From contig NZ_CP075188.1 of assembly GCF_020510525.1 (NCBI RefSeq), positions 3,906,001 through 3,970,000 of the forward strand: 64,000 nt of DNA, written 5' to 3'. Positions 12,670 through 40,741 of the stretch are shown here, piece after piece. The stretch comes from Quatrionicoccus australiensis. Its GTDB lineage: Bacteria; Pseudomonadota; Gammaproteobacteria; Burkholderiales; Rhodocyclaceae. Numbering within the stretch: the first letter of the stretch is position 1; each line of letters starts with the position of its first letter. Both the position numbers and the translations under genes were made by a program. Below the pieces are notes generated by a model that saw only the letters and a program-made list of their open reading frames with translations, was not told the origin of the DNA and searched no databases.

Positions 12670-14735
<2,066 letters not shown>

Positions 14736-14866
14736 TGGGTCGCAAGTTACTGGAAACACAGGCAAAATGCAAGGAAGGCCATTCTGCGCTCAAGATTTCT
14801 CGAATCTGGTCGAAATAACGTTACCAAGCGCCAGAATTCAAACGAAAAAGATCAAAGGGGTTTCAG

Positions 14867-26239: not shown

Positions 26240-26764
26240 GTGAACAACGAACAACTGGTCTACCAACACATTGGGGAATTTGAAGTCTCGTTCCAAAGGA
26301 TTGAGAATAAGCTACGGGAGATTGGATGGTTCGTCATCGATCCAGATCGTTTGAAATGGCCACCTCCGGATCTGCGAAACCTCACCAACGAAAAGCTCGT
26401 GGATCGCGTCCATGAACTTTTCTTGCAGGCCCTTCCAAAGTGCAAATTACCCGCAGAATTAGAAGCCGATTTCGAGAATTCCTCTGCATCCTCAGTCAGG
26501 CAGTTGCATCAACTACGCAGAGACAGAAACCGGATACTTCATTCAGCGTTCATTGAACTCAAGGCAGGTGAAGAGGATCAAGGAATTCTGCGCTCCAGCC
26601 CAAAGCTACAGATTGATGAGGAAACAGGAGAGCCCCTCTTTGATCAAGAGCTCCTCTCTGCGAAATCCTTCACCTCTGAGATGAAGGCTATGGCCGAGTT
26701 ATCGCTGTTCCTGAACCGTGCCTACATACAACTTATTCATCGGTATCACAGCGGGGGCGCCTAA
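26240..26764 (+). CDS. Hypothetical protein with HEPN-type RNxxxH motif
   Basis: A 174-residue protein from GTG 26240 with GGAG at a good distance; the frame extends to 26189. It is mostly helical and charged. The stretch LRRDRNRILHSAFIEL contains R96-N-R-I-L-H101, which fits the R-N-x-x-x-H catalytic motif of HEPN ribonucleases, placed after a helix as in that family. HEPN proteins are common in toxin-antitoxin and anti-phage systems. The DNA is clearly AT-richer than the flanks, suggesting acquisition. No partner antitoxin or nucleotidyltransferase gene is adjacent. The gap 26062-26239 before it shows only a minor CCGTT/AACGG hairpin. The family call rests on one short motif. Confidence 0.45.
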   Translation: MNNEQLVYQHIGEFEVSFQRIENKLREIGWFVIDPDRLKWPPPDLRNLTNEKLVDRVHELFLQALPKCKLPAELEADFENSSASSVRQLHQLRRDRNRILHSAFIELKAGEEDQGILRSSPKLQIDEETGEPLFDQELLSAKSFTSEMKAMAELSLFLNRAYIQLIHRYHSGGA

Positions 26765-26825
26765 TTCAAGCATTCCTGAGCGTCAGATTCTCAAAGCGGC
26801 ACACACCCACAAATAGCACTCCATC

Positions 26826-26981
26826 TCACCACTTCCCCTCCAGCGCCAGCATCACCATCCTTACCCCACGTTCGGTCGGGTTCAGGGACCATGACACAGC
26901 GCCGGCGTAGGCTTCCTGCTGGCGGCGGATGTCGGTTTTCAGCAGGTTCTGGCCAGAGAGGCGCAGGTTAAGCGTCTGCAT
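26826..26981 (-). pseudogene. C-terminal remnant of a TonB-dependent receptor
   Basis: The minus-strand frame ending at 26826 encodes NLRLSGQNLLKTDIRR...VMLALEGKW, which matches the C-terminal strands of TonB-dependent receptors and ends LEGKW, exactly like the intact receptor at 27488 (LTLEGKW). Just upstream, in another frame, SVLDA matches the SVLDAYW segment of that receptor, so a frameshift or deletion has occurred. The rest of the gene is absent, and the cytochrome c' gene lies immediately upstream at 27021. It probably descends from a tandem receptor copy. Confidence 0.7.
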
Positions 26982-27020
26982 CAAGCACCGACAAAACTCT
27001 GCCTTGCGCCCGATACACCA

Positions 27021-27485
27021 TCATTCGCGAATCTTGAAGTCGTCGTGGCAGGCCCGGCAGGCCTGTACCACTTTGCCATACTGCTGCTTGATGGCAGCTA
27101 CATCCGCCGCTTGGGCAACAGTCAGCAGGGTGCCGGCCTCGCGTGCCAAGGCGCCGGCACGCTCGCCGGCCAATGCCGGATTGCGGAAGATTTCCGGGCG
27201 TGCCGTCGTTTCATGCCAGCCGCTTCCACTCTCGCTACCCGGCGGATACAAGCCTCCCATGCCGGCTGTCGCGAGCGCATTGAGCAGGCTGGCCGACCGA
27301 ATCACCTCGTCACGGCTGAACTGCCCCTCGACGTTGGCACGAATGCGCGAAGTACTCCAGCTCATCACCTGATAGGCCGACTGGCGCCATTTAATGCTCG
27401 TTTCCGGCCGGACCTGCTGCGCCTGCAATGGCAGCAGCCAAGACGAAAATAACAGGCCAGCGATCAAAGAAGAGATGCGCTGCAT
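27021..27485 (-). CDS. Cytochrome c' (periplasmic c-type cytochrome)
   Basis: About 154 residues with a Sec signal peptide (MQRISSLIAGLLFSSWLLPLQAQ) and a C-terminal haem site CRACH followed by DDFKIRE. A single CxxCH near the C-terminus of a four-helix bundle is diagnostic of class II cytochrome c', which binds NO and may protect against it or carry electrons. ATG 27485 was chosen; ATG 27494 overlaps the receptor's stop (ATGGTAA). It is the last gene of the long 27-40 kb minus-strand cluster and is close-coupled to the TonB receptor. Confidence 0.85.
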   Translation of the reverse strand: MQRISSLIAGLLFSSWLLPLQAQQVRPETSIKWRQSAYQVMSWSTSRIRANVEGQFSRDEVIRSASLLNALATAGMGGLYPPGSESGSGWHETTARPEIFRNPALAGERAGALAREAGTLLTVAQAADVAAIKQQYGKVVQACRACHDDFKIRE

Positions 27486-27487
27486 GC

Positions 27488-29590
27488 TTACCATTTCCCT
27501 TCCAGCGTCAGGAGAGCCGAGCGTGGTTGCTTGTCCAGGCTGCCCAACTGCCAGTCCTGTCCACCAGAATAGGCGCGCACCGTGCGCCGGCTGTCATCGC
27601 CGAGAATGTTCTGCAAAGTCAGACGAAGATTGACCGAACGGCTGACCTTTCTCACCCAGTAGGCGTCGAGCACCGAACGCGCCTTGTTTTCCGCCCACAA
27701 CTCTCCGGGAACATCGGTCTTTGTCTTGCCAGTCTGTTGCAGCAGAACGCCGGCATTCGAGGCAAGACTGGACAAGGTCTGATCGTAACCCAGCGTCCAG
27801 ACATAGCTGGGTACCTCACGCGCCGCGCGACTGACACCCAGACGCCTGTCTTCAACCGTCGCCCGTGGCAGGGTCAGGTGAGTGCGCAAGGAACCGCCGG
27901 CCAGGCCGATCAGCTCGCCCTTGATTTTGCCGTCGATTTCGACGCCCCAGTGCCGGGCATCGCCTTCGTTGTAGGGACGCTCGACCCAGCGGGCGCCCTC
28001 AAGTACGGTACGGCGTTCGATGAAGTCGGAGGTGTCGCGCACATAGGCATTCAGGCCGACAACCGCAATCTCGCCCGGCCAGTAATGTTCGAGCGCCAGA
28101 TCCAGGCTGGTCGACTTCTCCGGCCGCAGATCCGGGTTTCCCCGACGATCCGCTTCCAGCGGCGAGTTGGTGCTGACCGAACGGACCGGCGCATTGCTGA
28201 TTTCTTCGAGTTTTGGCGCTTTCATGCCCATACCGAGCGATGAGCGGAATACCCAGCCCTCGCTGAACTCCCAGCGAGCGGAAATGGAGGGGGAAAGCGC
28301 GGCATGCTGTTTGCCCGGAGAATCAGCGGCAAGATCGATCGACTCGCCCCGGACCCCGGTCGTCAGACTAAAGTCCTTGGCAAGCGCCCATTCATCCTGC
28401 AACCAGAGCGTTGCCTGCTTTTCTTTCGCGCGGAAAACATCGCTGCCGGTAAAAGTCCCGGTGTAATTCTGACGTTCGGTACGATTCAGGGTGATGTACT
28501 CCAGGCCCAAGGCCGAAACGTGATCGGCCCAGCCGTGATCGGCCCGCAAAGCCGCGTTAACTTCATCCTCACCGCGCCGATAGCGCTCTGTCGATCGCAC
28601 GCCACTGCTGTCGCGCGTCACGTCCCGATTCTGTTCGCTATTGACCAGGGTCAGGCGGGCGGACAACTTGCTGCCCGCCACTACGGTTTCTCCTTCGAAA
28701 CGCAAGCGCGCCGCCCGCCGGTCGCTTTCTTCCCGGTCATTGCGCTGCAATACGGTACTCGCGCCGGTTCCGAGCACCGGGTCGGCGTATTCGTCACGCG
28801 TCAAAGTCGCGGTACGCTCGCCCTTCGCCATGAACAACATCGGCCACAGGCTGAAGCTGCTTTGCCCTTCCTTCCAGTTCAGCTTGGGACCAAGGAAAAG
28901 CTCGGATATCTGGTTACGCCCCTGTTCGCGATCCGTTTGCCAGAGCGTGCGTACCCCGGCATTCGACTCCTGTCGAATCAGACGCTTGTCGACCGGGCTG
29001 TTCGACTGGCTGATCGACAGGGGAATACTCCACGACCACGCACCACTGCTGCCGGTCTTGGTCAGGGATAGCTGGGCAACCGGCTCGTCACCCCGGACAC
29101 CGCCTGCCGCCTTGAAAGTCAAAGAATCGTTTCGCCTCGCCTTGTTGGTCACCAGATTGACAGTCACCGGCGTCGAGCTGCCGAATTCGGCCGTCGCGCC
29201 TTTCATGATCTCAACCCGCTCCAATTCGCCGGCCGGCATGCGCGCGACAATCAGCAAGGCATGGCGGGCATCACCCGGTGGACGTTCGCCATCGATCAAT
29301 ACTTGTACGGAATCCCTGACCATGCCGCGCGATCGCAAGGCCACCGAACCGTCGCTACTGGGAACTCCGGCATCGATGCCGGGCAGCTTGCTGAGTACTT
29401 CGCCCACATACAAACCGCCAGTCGCCTCGATGCCCTGGCGGTCGATGATTGTCTTTTGCGTTGCCGCCTGCCGCCTTTCGTCAATATCGGAGCCGGTCGC
29501 GTTGACCGTCACTTCGGCAAGCACCCGCTCCTGGGCTTGAACAGCACCCAGGCAGGAAAGGGCAAGAGGCAGGATAAATACTGGTTTCAA
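27488..29590 (-). CDS. TonB-dependent outer-membrane receptor (second of cluster)
   Basis: A receptor of about 700 residues. Start TTG 29590 (KPVFILPLALSCLGAVQAQ signal peptide) has GGAG upstream; no ATG is available. The plug domain (about 25-150) contains GLYVGEVLSKLPGID, VLIDGERPPG and RVEIMKGATAEFG, then a 22-stranded barrel ending LTLEGKW. It imports a ligand too large for porins using TonB energy. The ligand is unknown. The gene sits between a CcdA/TauE-like membrane protein and cytochrome c', and a remnant of a similar receptor lies just beyond. Confidence 0.88.
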   Translation of the reverse strand: MKPVFILPLALSCLGAVQAQERVLAEVTVNATGSDIDERRQAATQKTIIDRQGIEATGGLYVGEVLSKLPGIDAGVPSSDGSVALRSRGMVRDSVQVLIDGERPPGDARHALLIVARMPAGELERVEIMKGATAEFGSSTPVTVNLVTNKARRNDSLTFKAAGGVRGDEPVAQLSLTKTGSSGAWSWSIPLSISQSNSPVDKRLIRQESNAGVRTLWQTDREQGRNQISELFLGPKLNWKEGQSSFSLWPMLFMAKGERTATLTRDEYADPVLGTGASTVLQRNDREESDRRAARLRFEGETVVAGSKLSARLTLVNSEQNRDVTRDSSGVRSTERYRRGEDEVNAALRADHGWADHVSALGLEYITLNRTERQNYTGTFTGSDVFRAKEKQATLWLQDEWALAKDFSLTTGVRGESIDLAADSPGKQHAALSPSISARWEFSEGWVFRSSLGMGMKAPKLEEISNAPVRSVSTNSPLEADRRGNPDLRPEKSTSLDLALEHYWPGEIAVVGLNAYVRDTSDFIERRTVLEGARWVERPYNEGDARHWGVEIDGKIKGELIGLAGGSLRTHLTLPRATVEDRRLGVSRAAREVPSYVWTLGYDQTLSSLASNAGVLLQQTGKTKTDVPGELWAENKARSVLDAYWVRKVSRSVNLRLTLQNILGDDSRRTVRAYSGGQDWQLGSLDKQPRSALLTLEGKW

Positions 29591-29606
29591 CTGATGACTC
29601 CGATCT

Positions 29607-30308
29607 TCAATACAGGCGCAGCAACTGCGTGATGCCCACGGCAACCAGCAAACCTGCGCTAAGTCCTTCCAGACGCGGCAGCCAGGTGCCGAGCCGGGCT
29701 CGCAACTGCTCACCGAAATACGCCACCACAACGCCATAAACCAGTGACGGTGCGGTTATCGCCCCCAAACCAAAACACAGACCAAGCAGTGCGCCCAAAC
29801 CGGAACTACCGGTCGCCGCAGACGAAATCAGAACCGCGCTCAAGGGTGCGCAAGGTGTCAGCGCCATGCCCACCCCCATCAGGAACAGGCCGAACGGCAT
29901 CATCTGCGTCGCCGCAGGAGGCTTGCGCGATGACCATGCGACAACGGCTTCGCCAGCCGACCCGGCCTTGCACGACGATCCACGGCACCGCCTGGAGAGC
30001 AGGGAAACGCCCACCAGCAGCATCGCCAGGCCGATCGCCAGATGCACCACCCAGCCCTCGACCCCAGCCACGAAACGCGCCCCCCACCAACCGCTGATCG
30101 CACCGAATCCGGAATAAACCGTCAGTCGCCCGAGCGACAGGGGCAGCAGGATTTTCCAGGACTGCCTGACGCCCTGATCCGCATTCAGGAACACCGGCCC
30201 CAGATACGGCAGGCAACTGACCAGACAGGGGCCGAGACCGTAGAGCATGCCCAGCCCCAGTGCCATGGGCAGTCCGATGGCACTGACCGCATCCGGTGCC
30301 AGGCTCAA
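29607..30308 (-). CDS. CcdA/TauE-like (DsbD_2-type) membrane protein
   Basis: A 233-residue polytopic inner-membrane protein with about six helices in two repeats. The first repeat carries GLGPCLVSCLPYLGP and the second ALTPCAPLSAVL. Paired Pro-Cys motifs in helices 1 and 4 are typical of the DsbD/CcdA-like and sulfite-exporter/UreH-like groups, which move reducing equivalents or small ions. A loop after helix 3 is rich in Arg, Cys and Ser (RRCRGSSC), a possible thiol pair. Start TTG 30308 overlaps the activator's stop (TTGA); ATG 30266 is the alternative. Transport versus electron transfer cannot be decided. Confidence 0.65.
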   Translation of the reverse strand: MSLAPDAVSAIGLPMALGLGMLYGLGPCLVSCLPYLGPVFLNADQGVRQSWKILLPLSLGRLTVYSGFGAISGWWGARFVAGVEGWVVHLAIGLAMLLVGVSLLSRRCRGSSCKAGSAGEAVVAWSSRKPPAATQMMPFGLFLMGVGMALTPCAPLSAVLISSAATGSSGLGALLGLCFGLGAITAPSLVYGVVVAYFGEQLRARLGTWLPRLEGLSAGLLVAVGITQLLRLY

Positions 30309-31117
30309 AGCCCGTCCTTCAGATCGGCCAGGTACTCGCTGCGCGCCAGCACCGCCGCGCCGTAAGCCGTCGTGGTCTGCGGATATTCGGGCACCACCAG
30401 CTCCCGCTGCAGTTCGTCCTGGATGGCGGCCACCAGGCCCTTGTTGAGCGCCGGTCCACCATCGAAATAGACCCGATCCTCGATCCCGACCCGCTTGGCG
30501 AGACGAACCGTGCGCTTGGCAATCGAATAATGGATGCCGGCCACGATCTCTTCCTTGCCGTGCCCGTTGGCCAGCAGCCCGATGATTTCCGATTCGGCAA
30601 AGACCGTGCAGGTGCTGTTGATCGACAGCGGCGCCCCTTTGCCGTTGAAGTGGTAATCACCCAGTTCCTCGAGGTCGATATCCATGTTGCGCGCGGCGAC
30701 ATCGAGAAAGCGCCCGGTCCCGGCGGCGCACTTGTCATTCATGACGAAATTCGTCACGCAACCGGCGTCGTCGATCTGGATGGCTTTCGAATCCTGGCCG
30801 CCGATGTTGATGATGGTCCGCACCCCGCCATAGGCCTTTCCGGTTTCGTGGGCACCGATCGCATTGGCGGTGATTTCGCTGATCGAGTCATCGGCCTCCT
30901 TGAACAGTTTCCGGCCGTAACCGGTGGCAATCAGGTATTTAACCTCGCTGCGGTCGACCCCGCTTTTTTCCAGCAAAACGCGCAAGGCTTCCTTGGCGTT
31001 CTTGTGAAAGAGGCTGCCTGAATCGGCGACATGGACACCCTTGATCTTCCCTTCGGCATCAACCAGGGCTACCTTGATGGCGGTCGATCCGATATCGATT
31101 CCTGCGAAATAGCTCAT
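30305..31117 (-). CDS. ATP-dependent activator of double-cubane/2-hydroxyacyl-CoA dehydratase (BadFG/HgdC/YjiL family)
   Basis: A 270-residue ASKHA-fold ATPase. It begins FAGIDIGSTAIKVALVD (phosphate 1 loop), has IGGQDSKAI, and two cysteines, Cys130 (NDKCAAGTGRF) and Cys170 (NSTCTVFAESE). These correspond to the residues that bridge a [4Fe-4S] cluster between the two subunits of HgdC-type activators. DGGPALNKG forms the adenosine loop. Such proteins couple ATP hydrolysis to injection of a very low-potential electron into their partner. Its ATG overlaps the stop of the partner gene at 31114 (ATGA), so both are made together. Confidence 0.9.
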   Translation of the reverse strand: MSYFAGIDIGSTAIKVALVDAEGKIKGVHVADSGSLFHKNAKEALRVLLEKSGVDRSEVKYLIATGYGRKLFKEADDSISEITANAIGAHETGKAYGGVRTIINIGGQDSKAIQIDDAGCVTNFVMNDKCAAGTGRFLDVAARNMDIDLEELGDYHFNGKGAPLSINSTCTVFAESEIIGLLANGHGKEEIVAGIHYSIAKRTVRLAKRVGIEDRVYFDGGPALNKGLVAAIQDELQRELVVPEYPQTTTAYGAAVLARSEYLADLKDGL

Positions 31118-32325
31118 GTCCGTTGCTGCCTTTTCCGGGTCTTGATGGATTCGAGAAAAGCCTCGATCCGGGTCGATAACTGCCCCATGTCGTCCGGGCT
31201 GTAGTCGGTTTCGATGTACAGCATCGGAATGCCCGCCTTGTTCAGGGCATCCGAAACGCTGCGCTGCTCCATTTCGTAAACCTGGCAACCGGCAAAGGAT
31301 TGATAGACGACTCCATCGGCCTTGAAAGTGCTTGCCAGTTCGAGCAAGCGACGCAGGCGATCATCGTTGCGGGTAAAGATCGGGCAGGTGCAGGGCTTGA
31401 GATACTTGTCGGCCAGACTGTCGACCATGTCGTTGAGCAGCCATTCGTCGACCGCCGTCATGTCGTAGAGCATGCGGTTGGCCGAACAGGTTTCGTCAGC
31501 CACCACGACGCCGCCGGCCTGCTCGATGAGCAGGGGCAGCTTCAGGTTCGGGAAGATCGGCGGCGAACCGGTAAACACAATGCGCGGCGCTTTTTTCTGG
31601 GCGGCGTTGAAAGCCGCTTTTTCGCGTTCGGCCAATTCGAGATTCAGCACTTCGAGCGCAGCAGTCCACCGCTCGATATCGTCAAAAAAGTAGGCATTGG
31701 TGACCAGAAAGGCATCCTTGCCGAGAAATACCGAGGGCGAACTCTTCCGGAAGCCGTTCATCTTCCGGAAAGCAGCCTGGGCGCGGGCCGTCTTGGCCAT
31801 CGCTGCGCGCAGTTTCGGCTTGGTCAGTTTTTCGCCGGTCAGGGCGCGCAGACGTTCCGAGAACTGTCGGACCGAACGCTGCCAATAGACTCGCGAGGCT
31901 TCGCTTTCCTTGACGTTGGGAAACTCCAGGTCATGTACGACATGGCCCATCCCTTCCATCATCGCGCTGGATTTCTTTTTCTGGTCGCAGGTCGTCGGAT
32001 TGACGATGAGGTCGAGCTTGCCCAGTTTGGGAATGGCGTTCTCGGAACACAGCATGCCCAGTGTCGCCTTGACCAGCGAACAGGATTTGGCCGGCATGAA
32101 ATCGGCGCCGATCTGGTCGTAGTGATACGACCCATTGCACAGCCGGACCGGCGAGGCGCCGTGCGCATAAATCAGTTCCTCCGGGGCCTGGATGCAGGTG
32201 ATGCCGACCTGCGGTCCCTGCCTCTCCAGCGACTCGCCGCGGATATAGACCTTGCGGAACAAATCGTAGAAATAGCTCATCCCGGCCGGATTTTCGAGAA
32301 AGTCATCGACGATGTGATCAAGCAT
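31114..32325 (-). CDS. Double-cubane-cluster protein-like reductase (HgdB/YjiM family)
   Basis: A 403-residue member of the 2-hydroxyglutaryl-CoA dehydratase D-component family, with GITCIQAPEELIYAHG at the start. Cysteines lie at 44, 63, 82, 93, 113, 280, 312, 314 and 347, several in family-conserved positions (NPTTCDQKKK, ADETCSANRM, QSFAGCQVYE). The stand-alone single-subunit form paired with an activator matches the YjiM/YjiL type, whose studied relative carries an [Fe8S9] double-cubane cluster and reduces small molecules in an ATP-dependent way. No second dehydratase subunit or CoA-pathway gene is nearby. ATG 32325 has GGAGG upstream. Substrate unknown. Confidence 0.8.
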   Translation of the reverse strand: MLDHIVDDFLENPAGMSYFYDLFRKVYIRGESLERQGPQVGITCIQAPEELIYAHGASPVRLCNGSYHYDQIGADFMPAKSCSLVKATLGMLCSENAIPKLGKLDLIVNPTTCDQKKKSSAMMEGMGHVVHDLEFPNVKESEASRVYWQRSVRQFSERLRALTGEKLTKPKLRAAMAKTARAQAAFRKMNGFRKSSPSVFLGKDAFLVTNAYFFDDIERWTAALEVLNLELAEREKAAFNAAQKKAPRIVFTGSPPIFPNLKLPLLIEQAGGVVVADETCSANRMLYDMTAVDEWLLNDMVDSLADKYLKPCTCPIFTRNDDRLRRLLELASTFKADGVVYQSFAGCQVYEMEQRSVSDALNKAGIPMLYIETDYSPDDMGQLSTRIEAFLESIKTRKRQQRT

Positions 32326-32377
32326 GACCTCCGCCTCACGCGCCTGCCGGCTCTGGTGAAACGGAACGGGCTGGCGC

Positions 32378-33379
32378 TCAGGACTTCGGTTGGTCAAGAT
32401 GGATTCCTTTGTGCATGCGTTTGATGAATCCCGCTTCGGTCGATTCAAAGAAGGTAATGGTGGCAAACTTGGCCTTCAGGGCGCCGGGTTCCGGGCAGGA
32501 GGCAACACACTTGAGGCACAGCGTGCAGTCGTCCATCATGATTCGCGGGTTGCTGACGTCGTCGGCAATTTCCTTGATCTCCATGTCGCAAACCCGATAG
32601 CAATCACCGCAGCGCGTACATTTGCTGCCGTCCTTTTTCAGGGTGAGCAGGGCCGGTTTGGAAATCAGGTAATGCAGGGCGCTCATCGGGCAGAAGAAGC
32701 AGAAGAAGCGCTTCTTGACGAAAGCGCCGACGAAAAACAGGCCAGCGACCACCATGCCCAGGGTTGTCATGACCATTTTTGCCGTCGTCGAGAAGTCGAT
32801 CGTCCAGTGATCGAATTTTCCGGTCAGGGTCGGAATGATCATCCGGCCGGGACAAATCATGCAGAAAGGCGACCCCATGTCCTTCGAGAACCAGCCGGCG
32901 CCGATACCGAGCGGGATCAGCAGCATCAGGGCAAGCAGGACGTACTTGATCTGCGCCAGCACGCGGAATTGTTCCAGGGTATAGCGCCCGTAACGAATGC
33001 CCAGGCGGCGGCGCAATGCGGTAATCCAGTCCTGGATCGTGCCGAGCGGGCAGGCCAGCCCGCACCAGCCCTTGTTGAAAACGATGAACCACAGGCCGAA
33101 AGTCAGAAAGCCGGTCAGGATGGTCAGGGCGGCGGTGCTGAACAGCTTCTCCCACTTCCAGGCGAACTGGTGTTGCAGCGGGATCAGGTAGCACATCCCG
33201 CCGCGTCCTTCGGTGTTGTAGCCGCAGGAAAAGGTCGGCAGGTTGTTGCCGAGATTGATCCCGACATAGCCGCCATAGACGAACAAAATGAAAAAGGACA
33301 ACTGGAGCCAGAAGCGGAAACGGTTCCAGTCGACCATGTCGAAAGCGGCCTTCACTCGCCCCACCTCAGCTCCCTTCAC
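32378..33379 (-). CDS. NapH-type membrane polyferredoxin
   Basis: A 333-residue inner-membrane iron-sulfur protein with four to five helices. Membrane-proximal Cys motifs CGLACPLG, CMICPGR and CFFCPMS are followed by a C-terminal ferredoxin domain with two [4Fe-4S] sites (CTRCGDCYRVC and CTLCLKCVASC). NapH and NosR/CcoG-like proteins pass quinol-derived electrons to periplasmic or cytoplasmic partners. Here the ferredoxin tail could feed the activator of the next gene. Start is GTG 33379 (overlapping the previous stop by 14 bases), with GTG 33364 better spaced from AGGGAG. No NapG or nitrate reductase genes are adjacent. Confidence 0.85.
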   Translation of the reverse strand: MKGAEVGRVKAAFDMVDWNRFRFWLQLSFFILFVYGGYVGINLGNNLPTFSCGYNTEGRGGMCYLIPLQHQFAWKWEKLFSTAALTILTGFLTFGLWFIVFNKGWCGLACPLGTIQDWITALRRRLGIRYGRYTLEQFRVLAQIKYVLLALMLLIPLGIGAGWFSKDMGSPFCMICPGRMIIPTLTGKFDHWTIDFSTTAKMVMTTLGMVVAGLFFVGAFVKKRFFCFFCPMSALHYLISKPALLTLKKDGSKCTRCGDCYRVCDMEIKEIADDVSNPRIMMDDCTLCLKCVASCPEPGALKAKFATITFFESTEAGFIKRMHKGIHLDQPKS

Positions 33380-34370
33380 TGAAGCGGACTTCCTGGAAGG
33401 GCTTTACCCGGCGCCGGCGATAGAGATAAACCCCCAGCCCGCCGAAAGCGAGCACGAATACGGCAATACCGAGGCCATAGGCGTAAGACTTGTAGTCATT
33501 GGGTGATGGCGCGTATTTGCCGGACAGGGTGGCCTGATAATGGACTTTCTTATAGGCACTTCCCTGGAGCGTGCCGGCCTCGGCCACCTCGCGGTCGGCG
33601 ACCAGGACAAAGTTTTCCTTGGTACGGCGACGGAAGTCGTTCCAGGCCGGAAAGTAATCGCGAATCAGCGTAAATTCGACGACGCCCTGTTCGTTCGAGA
33701 TGGCCTTCTTTTGCCAGCCCTGCTGCGTCAGCATGGTGACCGGCACCCCGGCCAGCGGCTGGCCGCGGCCAAGCACGGTGAACTGCAGCGTGTCACCCGA
33801 AACGATACGGGTGAACAGCTTCTCCTTGTCCATGTGTTGGCGCACCAACTCGAGCGGCTGCTCCGGATCGCTGATCGCCTTGAGTTGCTCGGGGGCAACC
33901 TCGCGTTCGCAGCAACTTCCCTTGAGCACTTCCGCCTTGGCTGTCTGGACCCATAGGGTTTGCTCGCTCAACAACTCACGACGGGCGTAAGCATTGTTGA
34001 AGCCGAGTTCCTTGAACTCCATTTTGCTGTGCGCCAGGCCGCTTGCCGGCGTCTGATCGACCGTACTACGCTTACCGAGCGCATCACGCAAAAGCAGTTT
34101 GCCGGAGAACGCTTTCTCGTCGAGGTAGGCCGCATCGGACAACTGATCGCCCTCTCGGAACCAAAGGCGCTTGGTCGAGTTGTGAATGGTGTCAGCCTCC
34201 TCGCCGTTCATCACGGCATCGGTATTGCCATGCGCGTGCGTCGCCGCAGGCTGTGCCTTTTTCGGTGCGCTGTCGGTCAGCCAGAACAACTCGGGCGCCG
34301 CCTGGGCCGCGCCGGGAACGAACAACAGGGCGGCAAGCAATAGCGCAGCAAAATGAACCGGAGATTTCAT
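33366..34370 (-). CDS. Periplasmic DUF4198-like protein with C-terminal membrane anchor
   Basis: About 334 residues from ATG 34370 (GAAAGGGG upstream). A signal peptide ending in GAAQA is followed by a periplasmic part and one C-terminal helix (YAYGLGIAVFVLAFGGLGVYLY) with an Arg-Arg-Arg-Arg tail. The central region has a DUF4198/carboxypeptidase-regulatory-like beta domain (VSGDTLQFTVLGRGQPLAGV... and DREV). A Cys-Cys pair (GSCCERE) precedes it. Such proteins often accompany metal or siderophore uptake genes. Here it lies between the PepSY protein and the polyferredoxin. Function unproven. Confidence 0.6.
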   Translation of the reverse strand: MKSPVHFAALLLAALLFVPGAAQAAPELFWLTDSAPKKAQPAATHAHGNTDAVMNGEEADTIHNSTKRLWFREGDQLSDAAYLDEKAFSGKLLLRDALGKRSTVDQTPASGLAHSKMEFKELGFNNAYARRELLSEQTLWVQTAKAEVLKGSCCEREVAPEQLKAISDPEQPLELVRQHMDKEKLFTRIVSGDTLQFTVLGRGQPLAGVPVTMLTQQGWQKKAISNEQGVVEFTLIRDYFPAWNDFRRRTKENFVLVADREVAEAGTLQGSAYKKVHYQATLSGKYAPSPNDYKSYAYGLGIAVFVLAFGGLGVYLYRRRRVKPFQEVRFSEGS

Positions 34371-34402
34371 GGGAAGACCCCTTTCCTGGTTTTGAAAGAT
34401 AT

Positions 34403-35656
34403 TCACGCTTCGATCGGCGCCGCTGCCTGTTGCTCAGATACCGGTGTCTGGCGCGCCCGGCGCCGCATGGCCAGGTCCTTTTCGCTACGGTGCTTGCGCA
34501 ACCAGACGTTGAAGCCGGTCACGCACATCGCCAGCAGGGCCAATGAACAGAGACAGATGATGATCTGGCCGGCCAGGCCGAATGCCACGCCGGAATGCAG
34601 AGGCATTTGCCAGGCAATAAAGGTATCGGCACCACTGCGATTGGCTGCCAAGCGGGTCGAACTCACTACGCCATCGCGCATGCGGACATACACCGTGTTG
34701 TTGCCAATCGGCGCGACATCCGTCGGCAGCTTGAGGCGTACGGCGTATAGCCCCTTGGTGAAATCACGATTTACATAGCTGACCCGGGCCTCCGGCAAAA
34801 CCTGCAAGGCCGCTGCGGCAGCCTGCTCGGGAGGCACAATCGAGTCGTCCAGCCCGACCTTCCCGGCACTGGCTACGGTCGACGTGCTGGAAATCGGAGA
34901 AAACACGCCAATGACCGGTTTGACCAGGTCCGGCAAATTGAAATAGGCCGAGCTGAATGCAACCACGATCATCACCGGCAAGGTCAGCAAACTGGCTGAA
35001 CGATGCAGGTCATAATTGAGTTTGTATCCGCCCTGGCGGGAGCGAATGCCCAGCAGCGGCCGCCACGCCTTGATGCTGCGCCAGAGTCGCGGCCAGGCCA
35101 GCGTCAGACCGAGAAAGCTCGACAGCAGCCAGACCAGGGCACTTCCTCCCATCAGCCAGACGCCCCATTTTTCGAGAAACAGGGAGTAATGCAGACGCAG
35201 CATGAAGGGAATGAAGTTGACACGGTCGACCGCGAAATCGGAGGTATTTCTCTGTCCGAGGATTTCACCGCTATACGGATTCACAAATACCTGATTGAAA
35301 GCAACGGCCGACTTCATGCCCGGCACATGCTTGTGCACGACATGCGCGTCCATCCGCGATTTCAGGGAAACCCGCAACGCCTCATCCGGTGCTGCCGGAT
35401 AAGTCAGGGTCGAAACCAAAGCGTCGGGAAAGGCTGTCTCGATCCGCCCGATCAGCTCCAACTGTGGCAAGGCCTTGTCCCCCGGCTGAACCTTGAACAG
35501 TTGCGGGTTCAGAAAGGCGTCGATTTCCCAGCGAAAGGAAACAAATACGCCGGTGAACGCAGCCACAAAAAGAAAGGCCAGCAGGGCGAGCCCGCTCCAG
35601 CGATGGAGCTTGGTGATCAATTGCCGGCTCTTGCCGGTCAGCGCCAGGGAAGACAT
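34403..35656 (-). CDS. PepSY-associated transmembrane protein
   Basis: A 417-residue PepSY_TM protein with four helices. The first is in KLHRWSGLALLAFLFVAAFTG (the HRW motif), then a periplasmic PepSY region with YSGEILGQRN and LHYSLF, helices at about 180-200 and 245-265 (LNYDLHRSASLLTLPVMIVVAFS) and a last helix QIIICLCSLALLAMCVTG. The histidines in the helices are potential haem ligands. PepSY_TM proteins next to TonB receptors are thought to reduce imported ferric complexes. Start ATG 35656 has GAGG upstream; ATG 35671 is possible. Confidence 0.82.
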   Translation of the reverse strand: MSSLALTGKSRQLITKLHRWSGLALLAFLFVAAFTGVFVSFRWEIDAFLNPQLFKVQPGDKALPQLELIGRIETAFPDALVSTLTYPAAPDEALRVSLKSRMDAHVVHKHVPGMKSAVAFNQVFVNPYSGEILGQRNTSDFAVDRVNFIPFMLRLHYSLFLEKWGVWLMGGSALVWLLSSFLGLTLAWPRLWRSIKAWRPLLGIRSRQGGYKLNYDLHRSASLLTLPVMIVVAFSSAYFNLPDLVKPVIGVFSPISSTSTVASAGKVGLDDSIVPPEQAAAAALQVLPEARVSYVNRDFTKGLYAVRLKLPTDVAPIGNNTVYVRMRDGVVSSTRLAANRSGADTFIAWQMPLHSGVAFGLAGQIIICLCSLALLAMCVTGFNVWLRKHRSEKDLAMRRRARQTPVSEQQAAAPIEA

Positions 35657-35733
35657 AGCTTGCCTCGTCATATCGGGATAACGGAAAGAACGTCGGACAG
35701 GGGCGCGACCGGGGCCGGCACCTGTCCGAGCGA

Positions 35734-38046
35734 TCAGAAGGAGGCCGAGACCTGCAGCGCCAGATTGCGTCCCGGCATCAGGTAATACTCGTAGTACTTC
35801 TTGTCGAAGACGTTGTTCACCAGGAAGCTCGCCTTGAAGTTCCTGTCGATTTGATAGGAGAGCTTCATGTCGGATACCCAATACTTCGACACCCCGCCAT
35901 AGACGTTCTTTTCGGTGTCGCTGTTGGTCGCATTGGAATAAGTCAGACCGCTATAGCGCGACAGCCAGCTGCCGGACCACTGGTGATACTTGGCGTCCAA
36001 CCCCAGGCTGGCCATGTTCTTCGGAACAAATACCAATTGCTTGTCGAGCAGGCCGGTACCGGTGTTGTCCTTGGTGATCCGCGCATCGGTATAGGTATAG
36101 CTGGCACTGGCCCGCAGCCAGCGCGTCAGCGGCATGTCGCCGCTCAGCTCCACCCCTTTGGTCAGGCCTTCGGCGGCGTTGGTTTTCTGGCTGAGAATGG
36201 TGACCGTAGCCGGAATGGATGCCGTGTAAGGCCCGGTGTAGGTGGTTTCCTTCGAATAGATCATGTCGCTGATCTTGGTATGGAAATACGCCATCCGGAT
36301 GTTTGCTCCATTCTTCAGGTTGATTTCCGTTCCCAGATCCCAGGCCTGGGCTTTTTCCGGCTTGAGATTGAAATCGGAAGTAATCAGCTTGGCACCGGAA
36401 ACAGTATCGGCGGCATACAGGTCGTACAGGGTCGGCGCGCGGAAAGCATTCCCCATCGACGACTTCAGGGTCACCCCGTCAATCAGCTTGTAGACCAGGG
36501 CAACACGCGGGCTCAGTGCTGAATAGGAGTGCTCATCGACATTGACCAGCGGATTGATGCCCGCCGGCTTCTTGATCGTTCCATGCGTAGACCAGTCGTC
36601 ATAACGCGCCCCGAGATAGAGGGTAGCGGCGGAGGTGAGGCTGTATTGATCCTGGATAAAAATCGAATTGGTCCGGGTGTAACCATCTGCACTGTCCGTC
36701 GTTGCCGTTTTGCTGTCGTCGTTACGCCAGTCGGAAACGGTATAGACCCGGCGATTGAGTTGCCCGGTATTGACGGCCAGCCCGGTAACGATGAAATGAT
36801 CGTTGCCGGCGCCAAAGCTCAACTGAAGCTGTGCATCGTTCGTGATGTTCGGCGTATGCGTTGCCGTACCTGGACCACCGGAATAGGAAGTTGCCGCTGT
36901 AGTCCCCTTGGACAGGTAGAAAGCATCGCGGTCGAAACGGGAAACGTCGAACTTGAGCAAATAGTCGCCGAAGATCTTGCCTTCGTAACCGGCAAAATAG
37001 CGCTTATCAACTTTCGAGTTCTCACCGGGCAGGGAAAGCGAGGCTTCCGTCAGGCTGGCAATGCGTTTTCCGTCAATCTGCAGGTTGGTCGCTGGAAGAG
37101 TGACGTCACCGGCCGCACTCTTCAGGTAAAGGTTGTACGGGCTGTAACCGATCTTGCTGTCATAGTAGGTAAGCCCTGCCTTGACCTTGCTATCCGGCGA
37201 GATGTCATAAAACAGGGTGGCATTGAAATTCTGGGCGGTCGATGCAACCGCCCCCTTGTCACCGATGATGTACTGCGTCACACCCGTGTTATCGACTGTC
37301 TTCGTCCACCCCGAAACCGCTGTCGTACATGTGCCGCAAGCACCGGGCTTGACCGTGAGAAAGTCATTCTTGGCATATCCCTCCATCTTCTGGTGGTAAT
37401 AGCTCAAGGAAACTCCGAGGCCGCTCGCGAAGCGATCGCGATAGCCAAACTCATACTTGGTCCGCTCGCCATCGCCAAAGCCCTGCGTATAGCCGGCATT
37501 GATCTCGCGTTTGGTCGGTGCCTTGGTGATCACGTTGATCACGCCACCAATGGCATCGCTGCCATATAGCGAGGAGGAAACGCCGGGCACGACTTCGATC
37601 CGCTCGACATCCCCCAGGCCAAGCGTGGAGAGATTCAGGTTGCCCGAATTAGCATCGGCCAGGCTAGCCACGCCGTCGATCACCACCTTGGTTCTTGCCC
37701 CGTAGGCCCCGCGCAGCGAAATGATGGACGATCCGGCATCGCGGCTCGTATTGCCGACCGCGCCTCCGCGCAGATAAAGAGCAGGAACCTGAGCCGTCAG
37801 CACGTCGCCGAGGCGAATTGCATTCGAGTTTTCAATCTTGCTGGCGGTAATCACCGAAACATTGGACGGCGCTTCGGCTGTCGCTTGTTCAATCTTTGAA
37901 GCACTGACTACAACGTGGGAAAGCTGGCTGTCTTCATCGGCAAACGCTGGTGCAAATGTGCCGGCAAAAGCGCTGGCCACCAGCGCGCCTAGTATTTTCC
38001 GACGAAAGGCAGGGGCGCAGACGTCAGGCAGGTGCGTATTTTTCAT
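35734..38046 (-). CDS. TonB-dependent outer-membrane receptor (first of cluster)
   Basis: A 770-residue receptor from ATG 38046. The signal region spans about 40 residues (ILGALVASAFAGTFAPAFA), followed by the TonB box region QLSHVVVSASK and a plug with AIRLGDVLTAQVPALYLRGG, KVVIDGVASL and IEVVPGVSSSLYGSDAIGGVINVITK. The 22-strand barrel ends in aromatic QVSASF. It resembles catecholate/colicin-type receptors. An insert in an early barrel loop carries Gly-Ala-Cys-Gly-Thr-Cys. It follows exbD after 50 bases. Ligand unknown; the PepSY neighbour suggests a metal complex. Confidence 0.9.
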   Translation of the reverse strand: MKNTHLPDVCAPAFRRKILGALVASAFAGTFAPAFADEDSQLSHVVVSASKIEQATAEAPSNVSVITASKIENSNAIRLGDVLTAQVPALYLRGGAVGNTSRDAGSSIISLRGAYGARTKVVIDGVASLADANSGNLNLSTLGLGDVERIEVVPGVSSSLYGSDAIGGVINVITKAPTKREINAGYTQGFGDGERTKYEFGYRDRFASGLGVSLSYYHQKMEGYAKNDFLTVKPGACGTCTTAVSGWTKTVDNTGVTQYIIGDKGAVASTAQNFNATLFYDISPDSKVKAGLTYYDSKIGYSPYNLYLKSAAGDVTLPATNLQIDGKRIASLTEASLSLPGENSKVDKRYFAGYEGKIFGDYLLKFDVSRFDRDAFYLSKGTTAATSYSGGPGTATHTPNITNDAQLQLSFGAGNDHFIVTGLAVNTGQLNRRVYTVSDWRNDDSKTATTDSADGYTRTNSIFIQDQYSLTSAATLYLGARYDDWSTHGTIKKPAGINPLVNVDEHSYSALSPRVALVYKLIDGVTLKSSMGNAFRAPTLYDLYAADTVSGAKLITSDFNLKPEKAQAWDLGTEINLKNGANIRMAYFHTKISDMIYSKETTYTGPYTASIPATVTILSQKTNAAEGLTKGVELSGDMPLTRWLRASASYTYTDARITKDNTGTGLLDKQLVFVPKNMASLGLDAKYHQWSGSWLSRYSGLTYSNATNSDTEKNVYGGVSKYWVSDMKLSYQIDRNFKASFLVNNVFDKKYYEYYLMPGRNLALQVSASF

Positions 38047-38096
38047 GAGAAGGTATTTCCGGAAATATCGGATGAAATAAGAAGGAATAGCGGGAA

Positions 38097-38510
38097 TCAG
38101 CGCGCTTCCTGCGGCTGCGTCACGAATGCGATCTTCATCAGGCCGTTGCGCTGCGCTGCTGCCATCACGTCGGCGACGACTTCGTAGCGGGTCGAGCGGT
38201 CGGCGCGCAGGTGCAACTCGGGGTTGCCGGCGGTGAGTCCGGCGAAGCGCGCATCGAGTGCGTCGCGGTGCACCGCCTCGCCGTCGAGGAAAACGATGCC
38301 TTGCGCGTCGATCGCCAACTGGATGACGAGCGGCTTGTCGTCGAGCTTGCTCGAGCTGACCTGCGGCAGATCGACCGGGATCGCCTGGTGAAAGAGCGGT
38401 GCGGTGATGATGAAGATAACGAGCAGGACGAGCATCACGTCGACCAGCGGCGTCGTGTTGATGTCGGCCATGGGCATGTTCTGGCCTTCGCCGAAGGAAC
38501 CGAAAGACAT
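38097..38510 (-). CDS. exbD: ExbD/TolR-family biopolymer transport protein
   Basis: A 137-residue inner-membrane protein with one N-terminal helix (LVDVMLVLLVIFIITAPLF) carrying the essential Asp (NTTPLVD) and a periplasmic domain. With ExbB it forms the proton-driven motor of TonB. It starts 9 bases after the exbB stop. Confidence 0.92.
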   Translation of the reverse strand: MSFGSFGEGQNMPMADINTTPLVDVMLVLLVIFIITAPLFHQAIPVDLPQVSSSKLDDKPLVIQLAIDAQGIVFLDGEAVHRDALDARFAGLTAGNPELHLRADRSTRYEVVADVMAAAQRNGLMKIAFVTQPQEAR

Positions 38511-38519
38511 CGCCGCTCC

Positions 38520-39206
38520 CTACGCTGCTTTGGCCAGCGCATAGCGCGAGCCGGTGGTCAGGAATGTATGCAGGTCGTGCGCGAAGCCGTCGAGGTAGGC
38601 GGCCGACAGGCGGTTGGCGCGGTTCAGTGCGTTGTAGGCGAGCACAGCGGGAATCGCGACGAACAGGCCGGCGGCCGTCATGATCAGCGCCTCGCCGACC
38701 GGCCCGGCGACCTTGTCGAGCACCACCTGGGTGGCGCCGGAGAGACCGACCAGCGCGTGGTAGATGCCCCATACCGTACCGAACAGGCCGATGAAGGGCG
38801 CCGTCGAACCGACCGAGGCGAGCAGGGTCAGGCCCGATTCACAGCGCGCCTGGGCATGCACCATGTAGTTGCGCAGGCTGCGCGTCAGCACTTCGCTGAC
38901 CGAGATGCCGCCGCCTATCGTCACTTCCTTCTGCTGCGCATGCATTTTCGCGACATGCGCCGCGGTATCGGCCATGCCGGCAAAGATGCCGGTCGTATCC
39001 TTTTCCCGGATGGCGGCCAGGCCGCGCTCGAGATCGGCGGCGCCCCAGAAGGCGTCGAAGGCCTGATCGATGCTACGGTTGAGCTTCAACTGGGCAAAGA
39101 AGCGGCTGCCGATGATCGCCCAGCTGAGCAGCGAAAGAATGGCCAGCACGACCGCGATGGAATGGGTGACGATATCGCCCTGGTTCCAGAAATGCATGAT
39201 GCCCAT
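38520..39206 (-). CDS. exbB: ExbB/MotA-TolQ-family proton channel protein
   Basis: A 228-residue inner-membrane protein with three helices: near residues 15-35 (SIAVVLAILSLLSWAIIG), then ASVGSTAPFIGLFGTVWGIYHAL and AGLFVAIPAVLAYN, both characteristic of ExbB/TolQ. It forms the proton channel with ExbD. It lies between tonB (15-base gap) and exbD. Confidence 0.93.
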   Translation of the reverse strand: MGIMHFWNQGDIVTHSIAVVLAILSLLSWAIIGSRFFAQLKLNRSIDQAFDAFWGAADLERGLAAIREKDTTGIFAGMADTAAHVAKMHAQQKEVTIGGGISVSEVLTRSLRNYMVHAQARCESGLTLLASVGSTAPFIGLFGTVWGIYHALVGLSGATQVVLDKVAGPVGEALIMTAAGLFVAIPAVLAYNALNRANRLSAAYLDGFAHDLHTFLTTGSRYALAKAA

Positions 39207-39221
39207 GAATGACTCCTGATC

Positions 39222-39884
39222 TTAAGAAAGGGAAAAAACAACCGGCACGACCACCCAGGAAGCGACCTGGAGCGTGCCGCGCTTGGCCGGCACGAAGCGC
39301 CACTGGGCGACGGTGTCGAGCGCCGACTGGTCGAGCCGGGGAAAACCGCTGCTGCGCTTGAGTTCGACCTTGAGCGCCTGGCCCTCGGGGCCGACATGGA
39401 CGCGCAGATAGACGGTGCCGGTTTCGGCAAGCTGGCGCGAAGCGCGCGGATAGGGCGGCTTCGGGTTGGACAGGTAATCGGCGTCGAAACGGGCCTCGAC
39501 CAGCGGCTCGACCGCAGCAACGGCGACCGGCGCCGGAGCCGGCGCTGGCAGAGCGGCGGGAACGGGCGGCTGGACCGGCACGACGAAATTGCTCGTGGCG
39601 CTTTCCGTCTTGCTGGCAAGAATCGGTACCGGCTGGGTTTTCTGCGGCTGGCGTGGCAGCACCTTGGGCGGTGGCGGCAACACTTTCTTCTCTTCCGGCC
39701 GAACCGCCTCGACCATGCGCACGGCGAGCGGCCGTGCCACGTCGATCACGCTGTCGGCGTGGCCGATACCCAAAACGACGAGGGCCACCAGCAGCCCATG
39801 CACGAGCAGGGCCGAACCGATGCCGCCGGCGGCATGCTCGCGACCGGATGGATTGCCGTAGCTGCGCGGAAAAAACAAGGACAC
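39222..39884 (-). CDS. tonB: TonB energy transducer
   Basis: About 220 residues from GTG 39884, which has AAGGGG at good spacing; ATG 39929 or TTG 40043 would lengthen it. One N-terminal helix (SALLVHGLLVALVVLGIG with the His of TonB), a Pro-rich spacer (Pro-Pro-Pro-Pro-Lys and many Pro-Ala), and the C-terminal TonB domain with YPRASRQLAETGTVYLRVHV and SALDTVAQWRFVPA. It is the first gene of the 40-27 kb run and its upstream region carries RegA-like palindromes. It powers the two receptors in the cluster. Confidence 0.9.
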   Translation of the reverse strand: MSLFFPRSYGNPSGREHAAGGIGSALLVHGLLVALVVLGIGHADSVIDVARPLAVRMVEAVRPEEKKVLPPPPKVLPRQPQKTQPVPILASKTESATSNFVVPVQPPVPAALPAPAPAPVAVAAVEPLVEARFDADYLSNPKPPYPRASRQLAETGTVYLRVHVGPEGQALKVELKRSSGFPRLDQSALDTVAQWRFVPAKRGTLQVASWVVVPVVFSLS

Positions 39885-39961
39885 GCCGTAACCCCTTCCC
39901 TGAAATTCGGAGATCGCACCGGCGGGCATTTCTTGTGTTTTTTGCGCGTCGACCGGTACGG

Positions 39962-40055
39962 GCGGCAATTTGCCGCGGGGCGCATTGTTACCATTCGTTA
40001 CACAAGCCGAAAGTGGCAAATTGTCGCAGGAGGGGTGCGACAATTTGCCACTTTC
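39962..40055. promoter_or_regulatory. RegA/PrrA-like palindromes between tonB cluster and regA-like gene
   Basis: Three related sites: GCGGCAA-T-TTGCCGC at 39962-39976, and a perfect inverted repeat with 20-base arms at 40009-40028 and 40036-40055, separated by 7 bases. Each long arm itself contains GTGGCAAATTGTCGC, so all fit the pattern GYGRCAAWTTGYCRC. This resembles published RegA/PrrA/RegR half-sites (GCGRC and GNCGC). They lie in the divergent promoter region between the TonB operon and the RegA-type regulator at 40110. Confidence 0.7.
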
Positions 40056-40109
40056 CCCTTGTTTTTCAGGCTGTTATGGTCCGCGCTTTTCCATCCCGGA
40101 CGAGGCAAA

Positions 40110-40730
40110 ATGACACAGGGAACGGGTTTGGCGGCAAGCCGCGTGCTGGTCATCGACGATGACAACGTCTTTCGCCACAGCCTGGCGCGCGCCTTGCGGC
40201 GGCATGGCCTGGTGGTAAGCGACACCGGCCATTACGCGGCGGTACTGCGGCTGGCTGAAGAGCAGCAGCCGGATTTCGTACTGCTCGACCTCAATCTCGG
40301 CGACGACTCGGGCATCAACCTGATTGCGCCGCTGCGCGCCGCCCTGCCCGCCTGCCGCATCGTCGTGCTGAGCGGCTGCGGCAACCTGCCGGTTGCCGTC
40401 AATTGCATCAAGCAGGGCGCCGCCGACTACCTGGTCAAACCGGTCGAGGCGAGCGCCATCCTCGCCGCACTCTTCAAACGCGATCTTGCCGCCCGGGCCG
40501 TGCCGAGCAGCGAGCGCATGCCGCTCGAAGCGCTGGAAAGGGCGCATATCAGCCAGGTGCTGGCCGAGAACGACGGCAACATCAGCCGCACGGCCGAAAT
40601 CCTGAAAATGCACCGGCGCACCCTGCAGCGCAAGCTGTCGAAATTCCAGCCGGCCAGCCGGGGCAACGAAGCCGGCGCCAGGGACGTCCGGCGCAGCGGC
40701 TGCACTGGCGAGACGCCCGGCCCGGCCTGA
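40110..40730 (+). CDS. RegA/PrrA/ActR-family redox response regulator
   Basis: A 206-residue response regulator. The receiver domain (about 10-125) has the acidic pair IDDD, phosphorylatable Asp in VLLDLNLGDD (about residue 57) and the Lys of YLVKPVE. The C-terminal Fis-type helix-turn-helix (about 140-182) has HISQVLAENDGNISRTAEILKMHRRTLQRKLSKF, the RegA/PrrA signature. These regulators respond to the redox state of the quinone pool via RegB/PrrB. No sensor kinase gene is adjacent. It is divergent from the TonB cluster and convergent with the RND pump. ATG 40110 has GAGG upstream. Confidence 0.88.
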   Translation: MTQGTGLAASRVLVIDDDNVFRHSLARALRRHGLVVSDTGHYAAVLRLAEEQQPDFVLLDLNLGDDSGINLIAPLRAALPACRIVVLSGCGNLPVAVNCIKQGAADYLVKPVEASAILAALFKRDLAARAVPSSERMPLEALERAHISQVLAENDGNISRTAEILKMHRRTLQRKLSKFQPASRGNEAGARDVRRSGCTGETPGPA

Positions 40731-40741
40731 GCCGGACGCGC

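Follow-up and report, generated by a model that had tools for sequence, protein, structure and literature searches.

The closest precedent for the gene cluster treated here is the CrtA-CrpH copper uptake operon of Bordetella, in which, according to the available parts of PMC12914433 and PMC13038864, a TonB-dependent receptor is followed by a PepSY_TM protein, sometimes with ExbBD/TonB, and which is likewise tied to copper enzymes. Other points of comparison are the double-cubane-cluster proteins (DCCPs), known to reduce acetylene, hydrazine and azide and described as archetypes of a reductase family whose physiological relevance is called unclear (PMC11971306, in part), and the NosL/NosDFY system that delivers copper to nitrous oxide (N2O) reductase. 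The cluster in question lies in a 64,000-nucleotide stretch of the Quatrionicoccus australiensis genome (contig NZ_CP075188.1, positions 3,906,001 to 3,970,000; hereinafter the window, whose own numbering is used for its features) and comprises 12 genes, all on the minus strand, running from 39,884 to 27,021. It shares with CrtA-CrpH a receptor followed by a PepSY_TM protein with four haem histidines (read against FoxB, not CrpH). Unlike that operon, as described in the same two sources, it also codes for a DCCP, an ATP-dependent activator, a NapH-type membrane polyferredoxin and a DUF4198-like protein; the terms ‘polyferredoxin’, ‘DUF’ and ‘NosL’ have zero occurrences in the available text of PMC12914433. 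We propose, at a probability of roughly 0.58, that the cluster is a redox-regulated system for the acquisition and reduction of copper for periplasmic copper enzymes. The predicted copper link, namely a NosL fusion and RegA-type boxes at nosZ, SCO1, PCuAC and NosL promoters, is new with respect to an earlier sequence-only reading of the window.

That reading had counted the YjiM-like protein of the cluster (31114..32397, minus strand; alternative start ATG 32325) among the double-cubane proteins and not among the hydroxyacyl-CoA dehydratases, and profile, structural and phylogenetic comparisons all agree with it. The protein exceeds, by a narrow margin, the cut-off of NF040772 (double-cubane anaerobic reductase; 356.2 versus 350 bits), and its best solved relatives are 7yyl (E 3e-65) and 6eno (E 1e-64), with BzdN far behind (1.7e-18); 6ENO is called DCCP in the available part of PMC11971306. 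C68, C87, C106, C137, C304, C338 and C371 align by eye with cysteines of 7yyl/6eno and are Cys in 69/69 homologues, while C117 and C336 have no Cys partner in that alignment by eye. In a tree of 31 rows, computed with long-branch warnings, DCCP, E. coli YjiM and the clade of the cluster split with support 97/92 from other HGD-D proteins of the family, which places the protein with DCCPs and not with BCR/HAD subunits; L009 (genome G052) joins the clade of the cluster through a very long branch. The whole genome holds a single PF06050 gene, so that no second dehydratase subunit was found in it. Given this lone gene, the DCCP structures as closest relatives and the separate clade, we rejected an identity as a hydroxyacyl-CoA dehydratase or benzoyl-CoA reductase: the window protein shares with those enzymes the HGD-D family and a BcrAD/BadFG-type activator and differs from them as a single subunit of a distinct clade. 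The activator (YjiL/HgdC-like; 30305..31117, minus strand) matches TIGR00241 at 233.8 bits as well as PF01869. Such a pairing of DCCP and activator (DCCP/DCCP-R) is known from Carboxydothermus, and it recurs in E. coli YjiM/YjiL, with which the window pair shares the NF040772 family, the aligned cysteines and the adjacent activator. However, the pairs of E. coli and of genome G485 lack DUF4198, NapH and receptor neighbors, whereas the window pair is embedded in a membrane and uptake module. In G485 the classical pair adjoins a gene (L114:9310-10458, minus strand) that is cysteine desulfurase-like judging from its first residues.

The second line of evidence is the conservation of the gene block. 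Scanning the window DCCP against one genome per species gave 72 loci, mainly from beta- and gammaproteobacterial metagenome-assembled genomes (MAGs; Gallionella, Sideroxydans, Thiobacillus, Rhodoferax and others), two being labelled alphaproteobacterial, along with 36 from Campylobacterota, two from Desulfobulbaceae, one from Bacteroidota and one from a Bryobacterales bin. The DCCP of the latter sits among betaproteobacterial proteins in the tree, and this Acidobacteriota-labelled bin may be misbinned. Profiling covered 74 loci (the 72 with L104 and L105, the last on the same contig as L074, so that one locus is counted twice). The profile hidden Markov models were built from homologues in these same loci, that for PepSY from four sequences; hence the figures are presence counts and not independent discoveries. 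Genes were called as simple open reading frame (ORF) picks. Of the loci with 2.6 kb or more of upstream sequence, 58/58 have DUF4198 and NapH genes on the same strand within 9 kb of the DCCP; of those with 0.9 kb or more downstream, 71/71 have the activator. Among the 42 fully flanked loci of the 74, a same-strand receptor and DsbD_2 are each found in 36, ExbB and ExbD in 21 each, TonB in 19, a resistance-nodulation-division (RND) pump in 10 and NosL in 9 (8 of them fused to DUF4198). Even in G338, with a DCCP only 42% identical, the order receptor-DUF4198-NapH-DCCP-activator-DsbD_2 is kept, with divergent ExbB/ExbD/TonB-like genes adjoining the block. By sequence, the block thus recurs in Pseudomonadota, Campylobacterota, Thermodesulfobacteriota, Bacteroidota and the one Acidobacteriota-labelled bin. 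Parasulfuritortus cantonensis LSR1 (L046) is a cultured, non-pathogenic carrier, and Paramagnetospirillum magnetotacticum MS-1, with homologues of the DCCP (P0010) and of the DUF4198 protein (P0209), is probably another. The conserved order bears out the sequence-only reading insofar as it saw one unit in the cluster and placed TonB uptake genes beside electron-transfer genes. Of the outcomes that would have told against that reading, neither an order confined to the window nor a grouping of the YjiM-like protein with true dehydratases was observed. It had also known of no described system of this composition, and none was found in the literature searched, which covers subscription papers thinly and so does not show absence from print; in it no paper joined double-cubane with TonB-dependent, and none had at least three of six cluster terms.

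The module is patchy in the vicinity of its host: only 3/199 genomes of the family pass the DCCP cut-off, and an HGD-D gene is missing from 4/4 congeners. Across the phylum, DCCP matches at E <= 1e-80 are found in only 3/398 genomes, its own included. Regarding an insertion between glmS and the RND gene, in two of the 4 congeners the RND orthologue (81-82% identical) lies well away from glmS, and the other two lack one of such identity; synteny therefore says little on this point. An RND pump gene, often with TonB, follows the activator in L065 (7706-11495), L067, L075, L098 and other Campylobacterota loci, perhaps for ligand recycling or efflux. A MacA/ABC/MacB-type efflux set adjoins the cluster in L097 (12862-15970), and the three sequence clusters concerned recur in L045 and L047.

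Upstream of the DCCP are the two membrane-associated core partners. The NapH-type polyferredoxin (32378..33355, minus strand; Fer4_5 + Fer4_10) has in common with NapGH/CcoG-type polyferredoxins the Fer4_5 membrane architecture and the cytoplasmic 2[4Fe-4S] motif. It differs from NapH in scoring below the cut-offs of the NapH models (73.8 versus 234 bits and 71.2 versus 213 bits), in lacking Nap partner genes in the window cluster and in its extra conserved residues C44, C55, H62, C165 and C168, all of which E. coli NapH lacks. C44, C55 and H62 are invariant in 65/65 homologues and appear to lie in a periplasmic loop. The likeness to CcoG is one of description, in line with the discussion in PMC13038864.

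The other partner (33366..34370, minus strand) was called DUF4198-like in the sequence-only reading, a name that its Pfam match does not sustain (23.2 bits against a cut-off of 34) and its predicted fold does: the AlphaFold model (mean predicted local distance difference test, pLDDT, 85.3) matches Zcp structures with Cu, Co or Zn bound (E to 5.5e-11; template-modelling score, TM, about 0.5 of the query) and also a Ni-bound DUF4198 protein (6.8e-8). Its topology, judged by eye, comprises an apparent signal peptide, one C-terminal transmembrane helix and a conserved cytoplasmic tail, in which R318-R321, P324 and E327 are invariant (49 sequences). Downstream of the activator, the near-core DsbD_2 membrane protein (29607..30308, minus strand; PF13386) conserves C28, C32, C113 and C153. 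Partial paralogous sets without a DCCP are seen in L053 (402-2500; DUF4198 and NapH), L081 (1189-3650, minus strand; DUF4198, NapH and DsbD_2) and L045 (16385-18137; NapH and DsbD_2), which suggests that the ATP-driven pair is dispensable for the working of the membrane part.

The copper connection is one of genomic context and derives in the first place from NosL. A predicted NosL domain lies inside the DUF4198 protein of the cluster in 12/36 Campylobacterota loci (by the local profile, some loci being cut), including L065, where Pfam NosL scores 57.6 bits between the Fer4_5 domains and DUF4198. In both Campylobacterota proteins that were scanned (L065 and L068) the DUF4198 partner is long, with N-terminal Fer4_5 domains, and Pfam finds no NosL in that of L068. 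In the Bacteroidota locus L100, the activator is followed by genes for ferredoxin-type and NapH-like proteins, an ATP-binding cassette (ABC) ATPase, NosL and an ABC2 permease, with NosL at the cut-off (24.1 bits). A single contig of G168 carries the cluster together with nosZ, a NosL homologue (local profile, E 1.9e-7) and a SCO1/SenC gene. The local profile also matches three short DUF4198-like proteins outside the cluster. Several loci resemble the NosL/NosDFY system in having NosL fused or adjacent, and a promoter box is common with nosZ, while none of NosL, NosD, NosF and NosY is encoded in the window cluster itself.

That box is the third strand of the argument. Divergent from the cluster is a RegA/PrrA-type response regulator (40110..40730, plus strand; receiver and Fis-type HTH_8 by Pfam), 50% identical over 168 residues to a RegA-like protein whose gene adjoins that of a RegB-like kinase at another place in the genome. 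Between it and tonB lies a perfect palindrome (40013..40051; TGCGACAATTTGCCAC) of two inverted, predicted RegA-type boxes, and the layout upstream of tonB is repeated in L034. On the plus strand this palindrome also has a terminator-like score; nevertheless, we prefer to read it as regulatory boxes, since single boxes recur at other promoters. Searching the 4.17 Mb of the whole genome for its 14-base arm, TGCGACAATTTGCC, gave 5 exact matches, two being the palindrome itself and the others lying upstream of the RegB/RegA-like kinase-regulator pair (2719002), of an operon made up of an unassigned ORF, SCO1 and PCuAC (2722583) and of a second TonB-ExbB-ExbD set (4064014). Among one-mismatch sites, 2814351 precedes the likely nosZ start by about 70 bases and stands before a divergent PCuAC with SCO1 further on, and 996566 is about 66 bases upstream of a NosL gene pair. 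Together, the nine outside-window sites with at most one mismatch comprise three before copper genes, one at the RegB/RegA-like pair, one at the second TonB set and four others. With up to two mismatches the genome has 63 sites versus 23 for a reversed control, so that most two-mismatch sites may be chance. A third NosL gene (G000:C1:1001838-1002185, plus strand) lies near the NosL pair, with no box of at most one mismatch beside it.

The extended sites read GCGACAAWWTGCC(G/A)C. Compared with the form GCGNC-N5-GNCGC, taken from Rhodobacter capsulatus RegA sites located by chromatin immunoprecipitation sequencing in the available part of PMC5359404, the regB, SCO1, nosZ and nosL sites fit at 8/8 positions and the window boxes and second TonB site at 7/8; 9/16 published R. 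capsulatus sites fit at only 6/8, and 10/16 stay below 7/8 (same source). A 16-base pattern, relaxed on sites already found, gives 7 exact matches at six loci and, at two places, a further 3 that deviate by one mismatch, against 1 in all for the control; the unbiased test is that with the window's own 14-mer. A site also stands 200-227 bases before a nosZ match in 4/4 congeners and in G023; none precedes the second nosZ copies of G112 and G023, and nosZ of G168 has two-mismatch sites only. A count over 35 loci gave 54 sites of up to two mismatches against 0-4 in five shuffles, which, as in the promoter count that follows and the Fur scan below, keep base composition only. Near the cluster promoter (300 bases before to 120 after the longest-ORF start, L104 left out) a site occurs in 16/25 non-Campylobacterota loci against 0-1 in ten shuffles, and in 1/2 other loci; the sole sites of L050 and L058 lie after the longest-ORF start. 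Hence a predicted RegA-type box is common to the cluster, copper-chaperone and nosZ promoters. R. capsulatus RegA is itself reported to bind copper, and for group 1 species cotranscription of regA/regB and senC is reported (PMC9147068, in part). No sigma-70 type promoter-like site was found within 26700-40800 of the window.

The uptake genes open the cluster: TonB (39222..39884, minus strand; PF03544; GTG start chosen, ATG at 39929 being an alternative), the ExbB/TolQ-type proton channel (38520..39206, minus strand; PF01618), ExbD/TolR (38097..38510, minus strand; PF02472) and TonB-dependent receptor 1 (35734..38046, minus strand; PF00593 + PF07715). A second receptor with the same two domains (27488..29590, minus strand) comes after DsbD_2, as do its homologues in several loci, and has weak matches only. 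Receptor 1 shows weak kinship in the PDB to Cir, PhuR, BtuB and the entry 9rvq (E 8.1e-13), identified as the copper receptor CrtA in the available part of PMC12914433, which ranks below several iron and B12 receptors. The PepSY_TM protein (34403..35671, minus strand; PF03929) aligns with 7abw at E 3.1e-43, four histidines being matched by eye. This entry, titled PepSY domain-containing protein, is FoxB (PMC13038864). Cytochrome c' (27021..27494, minus strand; PF01322) ends the cluster. Core membership of PepSY_TM and cytochrome c' is not supported, with a PepSY profile match in 4/74 loci (some cut short) and a cytochrome c' BLAST match in 4/72; both look accessory by these counts, and PepSY, which the sequence-only reading had as an electron supplier, is no core partner. 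The second TonB-ExbB-ExbD set (G000:C1:4062093-4063932; L137:2094-3933, minus strand) has the same RegA-type box, with an HD-domain gene on the other side, and its ExbD begins, by eye, very like that of the window.

The physical layout fits the description in that reading of 12 genes on one strand with gaps of up to 80 bases and overlaps: the domains stand by Pfam and NCBIfam, the gene called CcdA/TauE-like proving to be DsbD_2 (PF13386). With the chosen starts the largest gap is 62 bases, between receptor 1 and PepSY; the others measure 15 (tonB-exbB), 9 (exbB-exbD), 50 (exbD-receptor 1), 32 (PepSY-DUF4198), 10 (DUF4198-NapH) and 16 (DsbD_2-receptor 2). NapH and DCCP overlap by 20 bases (or are 52 apart if the DCCP starts at ATG 32325), DCCP and activator by 4, activator and DsbD_2 by 4, and receptor 2 and cytochrome c' by 7.

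Taking these features together, we posit that receptors energized by TonB/ExbBD would bring a copper complex into the periplasm, where the DUF4198 protein would keep the metal or the complex close to the membrane. The NapH-type polyferredoxin, along with the cytoplasmic DCCP and its ATP-driven activator, would carry low-potential electrons outward to reduce the copper complex, protein thiols or copper sites, and DsbD_2 might assist via thiol electrons or copper transfer. The client enzymes would be N2O reductase where present and probably haem-copper oxidases otherwise. Copper as the ligand, these clients and the direction of electron flow are what we infer, the step from DCCP through NapH to the periplasm being suggested by the adjacency and overlap of the genes, the membrane polyferredoxin, the polyferredoxin-NosL-DUF4198 fusion in Campylobacterota and the conserved DUF4198 tail. 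More specifically, we tentatively suggest that the DCCP/activator pair serves as an ATP-fuelled electron injector for a trans-membrane polyferredoxin, sending electrons of very low potential from the cytoplasm into the periplasm to reduce copper complexes or activate copper-sulphur sites there.

Several observations weigh against the copper proposal. A nosZ match (E < 1e-30) is present in only 21/47 related-locus genomes, many of them MAGs, plus one weak partial match, so that nosZ as universal client enzyme is not supported; and 4/4 congeners have nosZ without the cluster. The His/Cys residues of the DUF4198 protein are not invariant, and neither receptor is close to known copper receptors. 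Four one-mismatch box sites (774686, 1032305, 2105927 and 3582841) are not beside recognizable copper genes by ORF reading, and only 1/24 Campylobacterota loci has a site near the cluster promoter. The signal behind RegA-type control may be low oxygen and not copper. Reducing Cu(II) by itself should require no ATP-boosted electrons, and this makes a tightly held complex, copper sulphide or a copper-sulphur site the more plausible target of the proposed DCCP step.

On the foremost alternatives, the DCCP might be a terminal reductase, breaking a chalkophore or copper complex that enters the cytoplasm, with NapH only feeding the activator. The known reduction of small molecules by DCCPs (PMC11971306, in part) and the apparently cytoplasmic location of DCCP and activator (no signal peptide by eye) beside uptake genes would suit this, whereas the conserved core showed no importer that would take a chelate across the inner membrane, and the polyferredoxin in 58/58 loci and the invariant DUF4198 tail suit a complex at the membrane; we regard it as unlikely. 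For the same want of transporter evidence, reduction of an imported ligand by the cytoplasmic pair, as the sequence-only reading had it, is given less weight than outward electron delivery through NapH. Comparably doubtful is a general low-oxygen module in which RegA-type control reflects anaerobiosis and what the cluster handles is not copper but, for instance, a nitrogen oxide, a different metal or a cofactor. Broad RegA regulons (PMC5359404, in part), the cytochrome c' at the cluster end, carriers without nosZ and the four of nine outside boxes away from copper genes are in line with it. Yet the window's own box recovers the SCO1-PCuAC, nosZ/PCuAC-SCO1 and NosL promoters, the NosL fusion is an independent sign from Campylobacterota, where RegA-type sites are nearly absent, and neither the window's cluster nor those of 10 loci showed a riboswitch at the gathering threshold. 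That same null, together with receptors only weakly BtuB-like, led us to reject a cobalamin reading.

Less probable still is a part for the pair in the maturation or reductive activation of copper-sulphur sites (CuZ of N2O reductase, for example), uptake of copper being a companion function: the NosL fusion, the NosL/ABC genes after the L100 activator and the box common with nosZ point that way, while about half of the carrier genomes searched lack a clear nosZ, and CuZ is periplasmic but the DCCP cytoplasmic. Least probable of all is an iron system, with receptors importing ferric siderophores or haem, PepSY reducing them and the DCCP helping iron release, since set against a receptor 1 resembling haem/siderophore receptors and a FoxB-like PepSY are the copper-gene boxes, the NosL fusion, carriers that include MAGs of the iron oxidizers Gallionella and Sideroxydans, and a Fur-box scan at background in 50 related loci, the window promoter not among them (mean best mismatch 8.18 versus 8.20 in shuffles; L048 and L052 reach 5), on which Fur control was rejected.

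If the electron-injector reading holds, a free-standing double-cubane protein would for the first time have a physiological role, and metal acquisition a novel form of ATP-driven electron export, in records labelled with five phyla. The cluster would tie one DCCP clade to copper and N2O reduction, and thereby assign a little-understood reductase a role in copper supply that is open to direct genetic testing. If the copper proposal is right, bacterial copper supply in low-oxygen habitats would gain a reduction step driven by ATP, with a bearing on the limits to removal of the greenhouse gas N2O. Elsewhere in the window, a thiamine pyrophosphate (TPP) riboswitch above the Rfam gathering score lies at 14644-14739 (minus strand), unrelated to the cluster.

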